Position numbers and translations under genes: made by a program. The notes beneath the pieces were generated by a model that did no database searches, was not told the DNA's origin, and saw only the letters and a program-made list of their open reading frames with translations. DNA of 64,000 nucleotides from Nitrospirota bacterium (GTDB taxonomy: Bacteria > Nitrospirota > Thermodesulfovibrionia > UBA6902), in NCBI GenBank assembly GCA_016215115.1, contig JACRLN010000014.1, positions 62,001 through 126,000 on the forward strand, read 5' to 3'. This document shows positions 736 through 4,895 of this stretch, in pieces. Every line of letters begins with the position of its first letter. Position 1 is the first letter of the stretch.

Positions 736-1959
736 ATGAAGTTATTGCTTGTATTTATTCTAATTGTTTCTGCTGCTCTTGTCCCTCAACTGGCATTCTC
801 AGGGCAGGCCAAGACAATTGATGAACTTGTATCACCAGTAGATTCCACGCAGTGTGAAGGATGCCACACTGATATTCACGAAAACTGGTCCAAGTCATGG
901 CACTCTAAATCAATAACCGATCCACGCACTATAAGATCATTCAGAACATTTTTATTAAGCGGGGTTGATAAATTGCCCGGGGTAAAGAGAACCATGTTGA
1001 GAGATATGTGTCTCATGTGCCACGCGCCGATCGCTGCTTCGAACGCTTCTGATGAGCTTGCAGAGCAGATTGCAGGATTAATAGTGACCGCTGTTGATGA
1101 TAAAGATGCATCTAAAAAAGAGGCGGCAATAAAAGAACTTTCAAAGGTTAATATTAACTGTCTTACATGTCATGGCAATAAAACACCCGGAGGCCTGGGG
1201 GCCGGCCCGATGGAAGCGAATACAATTTACGGGCCCGGAGATGCAAAGAATCCTCCTCATAAAGACGCAATCGGTTTTAATACCATACAGTCGGCATACA
1301 TGAAAAAAGCCGAATTCTGCGCACCGTGTCACCACGGATGTCCGCCGGGTATGTCTTCAAAAGAATGCCCGACCCAATGGTCAGTTTATCAGGAACACTA
1401 TCTGGCACACGGCGGCAAGCAAACCTGCCAGGAATGCCATATGAAGGGTGAAGGCGGTGCAAGCCACAGGTTCCCCGGGATCTATGAGAAGGACTTTGCA
1501 CAGACTGCGATAGATATTCAATTAAGCGCAACACCGACCCGTAATTTTGATCATTTGAATAATACGTCATCACCTGCAGTTGTAATAAATGTACAGTTGA
1601 GAAACAACGCTGCGCATGACCTGCCGCATGGCTGAGTATTCATCCCAAAGGCGGCACTGGAAGTGACCGTGAAAGATCAGGACGGCAAGGTAGTATTTTC
1701 AAAAAGCAAAGAATATGAGGTCTATGACCTTCATCTGCCTTCAAACAAAAAAGGCTATGAAGGCTTTGACGATTGGGATCTGACTGCCATGACGCACATT
1801 AATTTAGGGCTTGAGCCTCTTGAAACAGATTCTCATACATTTGTAGTGCCCCTCAAGGCAGGCACCAAGTCTGTGGAGATTGAAGCCGCATACAAATTCA
1901 GCTATGAAGAAAGCGATACAGCAACCTGGAAAAAGGTGAGCAAAAAGATAGAATTTTAA
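736..1959 (+). CDS. Secreted five-heme cytochrome c, frame crossed by UGA at 1633 (possible selenoprotein)
   Basis: A signal peptide (residues 1-22) is followed by five CxxCH heme sites with first Cys at residues 40, 92, 142, 195 and 231, so the protein should be a periplasmic or surface electron carrier. The open frame stops at a TGA (1633-1635, codon 300) and resumes in exactly the same frame for 107 sensible residues (VFIPKAALEVTVKDQDGK...) to a TAA at 1959. The downstream half has beta-sandwich character, no heme motifs and no start or ribosome binding site of its own, so one 407-residue protein is the natural reading. The UGA replaces the residue after HDLPHG, where related cytochromes with an LPTG-like motif can carry Cys (recollection, not checked). 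A hairpin downstream of the UGA resembles a bacterial SECIS. Alternatives are a nonsense mutation or sequencing error. A strong terminator follows. Confidence 0.7.
1651..1670 (+). promoter_or_regulatory. SECIS-like hairpin downstream of in-frame UGA
   Basis: Bases 1655-1658 (CACT) pair with 1662-1665 (AGTG) around a three-base GGA loop; below a single bulged A (1666), 1651-1654 (GCGG) pair with 1667-1670 (CCGT, last pair G-U). The loop lies 23 bases after the UGA and begins with two G. This fits the usual description of bacterial SECIS elements: a small apical loop with G in its first two bases, 16-37 bases from UGA. The E. coli fdhF element has its bulge (U) on the other side, so the match is in shape, not sequence. 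Confidence 0.45.
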
Positions 1960-4589: not shown

Positions 4590-4895
4590 TTGTCAGCAGC
4601 GGAGGTTATAACAAACTTGCAGGACGTTGCCAGGCTTAAATTTCTTGACAAACCTATATACGCAGACGCAACAACTGATATAATTTATATGATGTGCCCG
4701 ATGCATTTGCTTACTATTGAGGATAAGATCAAGGAAATTAACACAGGAGAAATCCTGTCCATTCTTACAGACTACGACGGGGCGCTTGAAGATATCCCCG
4801 GATGGTGTAATAAAACAGGAAACGAATTCATGGGGATTTATGAAGACACGGATCATTATAAATTCTTTATAAGAAAGGTTAAGGAGTCAAAATGA
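4590..4895 (+). CDS. TusA-like sulfur carrier protein
   Basis: The 101-residue product starts at a TTG at 4590 preceded by AGAGGT (4579-4584). From residue 36 it reads CPMHLLTIEDKI, then INTGEILSILTDYDGALEDI, PGWCNKTGNEF and a terminal YKFFIRKV. This is the TusA/SirA fold: active-site CPxP-like motif (here CPMH), the Gly-Glu strand, the DIP segment and the final beta strand. TusA proteins carry persulfide sulfur. Its four-base overlap (ATGA) with the IscS-like gene implies translational coupling and a role in delivering or accepting sulfur in this Fe-S system. The 35-residue N-terminal extension is longer than usual for TusA. Confidence 0.72.
   Translation: MSAAEVITNLQDVARLKFLDKPIYADATTDIIYMMCPMHLLTIEDKIKEINTGEILSILTDYDGALEDIPGWCNKTGNEFMGIYEDTDHYKFFIRKVKESK

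Follow-up and report, generated by a model that had tools for sequence, protein, structure and literature searches.

The family to which the gene described here belongs was first predicted in Geobacter by Fujita et al. in 2007 (PMC1914089), from the Geobacter sulfurreducens genes GSU2937 and GSU2936, where an in-frame TGA splits the annotation of a pentaheme cytochrome c and was proposed to stand for selenocysteine (Sec). The same study found no SECIS element and no homologue lacking Sec, and the alternative of an operon was left open. The Geobacter protein carries the name ExtKL and forms part of extHIJKLMNOPQS (PMC5877670); a role in selenite reduction has been proposed for it (PMC5877670, PMC6148476), or, more broadly, in selenite/tellurite reduction. 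A likeness of fold between the ExtKL family and the pentaheme cytochrome c552 has been noted (PMC11976967), and a 2026 review (PMC13188914) includes the family among prokaryotic selenoproteins, with its motif not given. Selenium in a protein of this family is known from a single deposited homologue, MccSep, represented by PDB entries 9wt8, 9wta and 9wtb and by the U325A-named entries 9wt9 and 9wtc.

The window analyzed here, a stretch of 64,000 nucleotides from a Nitrospirota bacterium (contig JACRLN010000014.1), contains on its plus strand an ExtKL-type gene at positions 736-1959, encoding 407 residues and ending in a TAA stop at 1957-1959. Read-through translation agrees with the preliminary description: the frame is interrupted solely by TGA at 1633-1635, which corresponds to residue 300, and continues for 107 residues thereafter. 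The five hemes proposed earlier are likewise borne out by five CXXCH motifs (residues 40-44, 92-96, 142-146, 195-199 and 231-235, with cysteines C40, C92, C142, C195 and C231; positions 853-1440). A hydrophobic N-terminal segment encoded at 736-801 (MKLLLVFILIVSAALVPQLAFS) is a likely signal peptide, modeled as a helix over residues 2-19. The UGA codon closes an H-D-L-P-H-G-U motif reaching from H294 to U300 (1615-1635), and the 107 codons that follow it (1636-1956) make up a C-terminal half modeled as strands of a beta-sandwich. The earlier statement that this downstream half has neither a start codon nor a ribosome-binding site holds but for one detail: no plausible binding site was seen by eye at the right distance, but a GTG is present at 1663 and could start an ORF of 98 amino acids.

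The read-through protein matches the NCBIfam model NF040886.1, 'multiheme c-type cytochrome (seleno)protein ExtKL', with 286.9 bits in hmmscan (cut-off 250) and an alignment spanning positions 17-422 of the 423 in the model; Sec occupies the place after HxxPxG where the family has Sec or Cys. The same model is matched by all 35 members of our family alignment, in which the five CXXCH motifs are invariant. The sequence match to MccSep (E 1.7e-37) extends over residues 19-330, leaving the last 77 residues outside the local alignment; Sec325 of MccSep aligns with U300 and its Cys239 with Cys211. Residue 325 is written as X in one PDB sequence and as A in the U325A-named one, and both align precisely with the UGA 1633 residue. 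The best fold match over both domains is the sequence-related pentaheme cytochrome c552 of Thermochromatium tepidum (PDB 5ze8; E 1.2e-15, TM 0.62/0.65), with about 20% identity to the protein. We therefore regard ORF 736-1959 as a well-supported new member of the already named ExtKL/MccSep family of selenoproteins, at a probability of about 0.96. The suggestion of an uncatalogued class of Sec-containing cytochrome, made when the sequence was initially described, does not stand: the protein belongs to a family predicted in 2007 (PMC1914089), reviewed in 2026 (PMC13188914) and represented by MccSep structures in the PDB.

Relatives with E-values of 1e-10 or better are present in 154 of 296 genomes of the phylum, and most of the closer ones contain exactly one in-frame TGA. 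A scan of genome contigs revealed further relatives in Desulfobulbaceae, Desulfobacterales and others. All ExtKL-type homologues that cover column 300 have U or C there, with 44 distinct UGA sequences and 14 distinct Cys sequences, while His, Tyr, Gly, Asn and other residues occur there in distant relatives only. The UGA form is found in about 73 of the 296 genomes, and many independent assemblies keep the UGA at this codon, among relatives sharing 25-81% identity. One of the Cys forms is a paralogue from the genome that contains the window, a single unbroken ORF on the minus strand of contig C35 (L074 4080-5279) that passes the NF040886 cut-off; a third copy also passes it with its C-terminal fragment. 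Since Cys homologues are found, including this paralogue, the 2007 statement that none exist no longer holds in these data. The Cys paralogue adjoins a glgC-type gene and a MurJ gene, and Sec and Cys forms coexist in the genome. The third copy, on contig C9 (L075 4213-5474), has the UGA and the conserved hairpin described below, but its frame changes near 4737-4752; it represents either a decayed gene or an assembly error. A relative in another genome (G090 contig C12:221-1375) combines an in-frame TGA at the Sec column with a TAG elsewhere, and is likely decayed or erroneous. No similar DNA was found in phage records.

An ext-type location is typical of Geobacteraceae and is not part of the NF040886 model. 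Unlike the Geobacter gene, which lies inside extHIJKLMNOPQS, the gene at 736-1959 is accompanied by a B12-binding domain gene on the minus strand, a B12-binding/radical SAM gene, an Rrf2-type regulator, a NifS-type desulfurase and a NifU-type scaffold. No cluster of the ext type is present at the gene: its immediate neighbors are unrelated, and the same applies around both paralogues. In the close relatives checked, the two halves of the gene are exactly one codon apart and the surrounding genes differ. Judged by gene order, ExtKL in Nitrospirota is spread outside any shared gene neighborhood, and this cytochrome selenoprotein is common in the phylum outside of the Geobacter ext cluster. Comparisons with four close relatives give dN/dS values of about 0.10-0.12 downstream of the UGA in the three cases with finite dS (dS is saturated in the fourth), and 0.09-0.14 upstream. 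By this measure, the codons past the UGA are under the same purifying selection as the codons before it. Gene callers will cut ExtKL at the UGA, with loss of the C-terminal domain.

Immediately downstream of the UGA, at 1651-1670, lies a SECIS-like hairpin with a stem of 1651-1658 paired to 1662-1670, a bulged A1666 and a GGA loop at 1659-1661, 23 nt from the UGA. Folding recovers it at precisely the position first reported, with the same loop, bulged stem and spacing. The loop and spacing consensus of bacterial SECIS elements is general knowledge, and the hairpin agrees with the SelB type in having G first in the loop at a suitable distance just downstream. An Rfam search with the hairpin returned no match, only three weak hits far under their thresholds. 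Against dinucleotide shuffles of the whole 53-nt stretch the hairpin is not outstanding (z +0.46), so taken alone it constitutes weak evidence. It is outstanding when the codons of 1648-1674 are preserved in shuffling: 2 of 200 shuffles fold equally well (z -3.1). We applied the latter comparison to bases 16 to 42, numbering the first base of the Sec/Cys codon as 1, shuffling each sequence 200 times with its codons preserved and taking the Cys group as the control. The 44 distinct UGA sequences have a mean energy of -9.0 kcal/mol versus -3.7 kcal/mol when shuffled (mean z -2.5), whereas mean z is 0.05 in the 14 distinct Cys sequences; 39 of the 44 fall within the lowest 5% of their shuffles as opposed to 0 of the 14, in counts of related sequences that are not independent events. 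Of the 44 UGA sequences, 41 have a GGA loop. Two versions of the stem occur, which differ in the base that is bulged: one is that of 1651-1670, and in the other the bulge is a U. Past the UGA, UGA members almost without exception use GTG for Val and ACC for Thr, whereas Cys members vary in these codons. As codon-preserving shuffles indicate, the hairpin is under synonymous-site selection in the UGA members and is absent in the Cys members.

The same genome encodes the machinery for Sec insertion. The genes selA (627 bits) and selB (342 bits) adjoin on contig 51, ARAGORN identifies a tRNA-Sec with the anticodon UCA, and two selD genes score above the cut-off, each with one in-frame TGA, which in one of them is read through to place Sec near the N terminus. 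Across the phylum, a strong selB is present in 70 of the 73 genomes with a UGA homologue compared with 60 of the 223 others, the 73 having been tabulated by hand and related genomes counted as they come; the three UGA genomes in which selB was not detected are all draft assemblies. The preliminary description had read UGA 1633 as a possible selenocysteine codon and had proposed, among other checks, two that concern the residue after HDLPHG in homologues and the presence of selA, selB, selC and selD. The first finds only UGA or Cys among ExtKL-type homologues and the second a complete set, in agreement with that reading, as are the SECIS confined to UGA members and the aligned Sec of the solved homologue. 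Comparison among relatives shows that UGA 1633 is decoded, that a SECIS-like hairpin goes with it and that it is under selection. SelB and Sec-tRNA(UCA) would bind the hairpin at 1651-1670, leading to insertion of selenocysteine at the UGA. Such SelB-dependent insertion is strongly supported by the comparative data, and the product of 736-1959 presumably contains selenium.

Under the alternative considered in 2007, the locus would be a conserved operon of two genes: UGA 1633 would terminate the pentaheme cytochrome, and a small protein of its own would be encoded downstream. Fujita et al. kept this arrangement open for the Geobacter gene because no SECIS was found (PMC1914089), and the GTG at 1663 could supply the start of the second protein. 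Against it, the Cys homologues are single unbroken ORFs, one of them in the same genome, the two halves share a frame and are separated by a single codon in those relatives that were checked, the hairpin is selected only where the UGA is present, and structures exist with Sec at this column; we consider two genes very improbable. Both doubts attached to the 2007 prediction, the missing SECIS and the missing Cys homologues, are settled from comparative data. Along with the conserved SECIS and the Cys homologues, the analysis adds to the family its spread in Nitrospirota and a cysteine, Cys211, that accompanies Sec/Cys300.

Still less probable, in our estimate, is that the UGA results from a sequencing error or from a recent nonsense mutation in a pseudogene. 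The assembly is a draft and the third paralogue is frame-shifted, but the UGA is kept at the same codon in many independent assemblies from relatives of 25-81% identity, and dN/dS is as low past it as before. An error is already contradicted by these observations, as it would have to recur in every homologue. We attach an equally slight chance to decoding of the UGA as a standard amino acid such as cysteine, for example by a tRNA-Cys resembling tRNA-Sec. A tRNA of this kind is encoded in the genome, and selC* tRNAs with a UCA anticodon occur in some Desulfobacterales; here, however, the selC*-like tRNA carries GCA. Two tRNA genes exceed the tRNA-Sec cut-off, and UCA is the anticodon of just one, tRNA-Sec itself. 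Decoding as a standard amino acid also sits poorly with the presence of selA, selB and two UGA-containing selD genes, and with Sec in the homologue MccSep. The tRNA in question (L010 1500-1592, contig C8:4547-4638) scores 53.5 bits to the tRNA-Sec model with its Cys anticodon and lies near a split-Soret-cytochrome-like gene, a formate dehydrogenase alpha gene, a UGA-containing selD and yedF. This tRNA is similar to the selC* type of tRNA-Cys reported in Nitrospirae (PMC7609411).

With the UGA read as Sec, the ExtKL protein would be a c-type cytochrome with five hemes that is exported and ends in a beta-sandwich domain, export and heme loading being predicted from its sequence. The structural model (pLDDT 86, pTM 0.82) consists of a helical pentaheme part followed by the beta-sandwich; the Sec loop is poorly defined in it, with pLDDT below 50 for residues 300-302. 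Invariant columns in the 35 aligned members include, in addition to the heme motifs, H294, P297, G299, residue 300 and Cys211, a non-heme cysteine encoded by TGC at 1366-1368. Cys211 accompanies Sec or Cys at position 300 in 59 of the 59 sequences that cover both, and is absent in distant relatives whose residue 300 is neither. Sec300, located at the beta-sandwich edge in an HxxP(D/H)GU turn, may act as a redox-active residue, most likely together with Cys211, and could take electrons from the five hemes for periplasmic reduction. We favor a heme-fed redox site of Sec300 and Cys211 on account of this co-occurrence, while holding it tentatively. It is similarly conjectural that a selenenylsulfide forms reversibly between Sec300 and the distant Cys211, the pair being connected to the chain of five hemes. 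If so, ExtKL would be a heme-driven oxidoreductase of selenols and thiols in the periplasm, in which one-electron hemes feed two-electron chemistry at selenium. The co-occurrence of Cys211 with residue 300 may also reflect one clade-defining event or a few evolutionary events, since these distant relatives may belong to a single separate clade or to a few. Among the distant pentaheme relatives from the same phylum, two (L085 and L088, family f27) have His at the Sec column and lack Cys211, and a strong selB is absent in all 61 genomes tallied for this family. The pair of Sec and Cys paralogues within one genome, along with the Cys211 pattern, offers a direct handle on the role of selenium in a multiheme cytochrome. 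In another genome (G248), UGA-form and Cys-form ExtKL genes are adjacent to each other on contig C114 (L079 644-3967).
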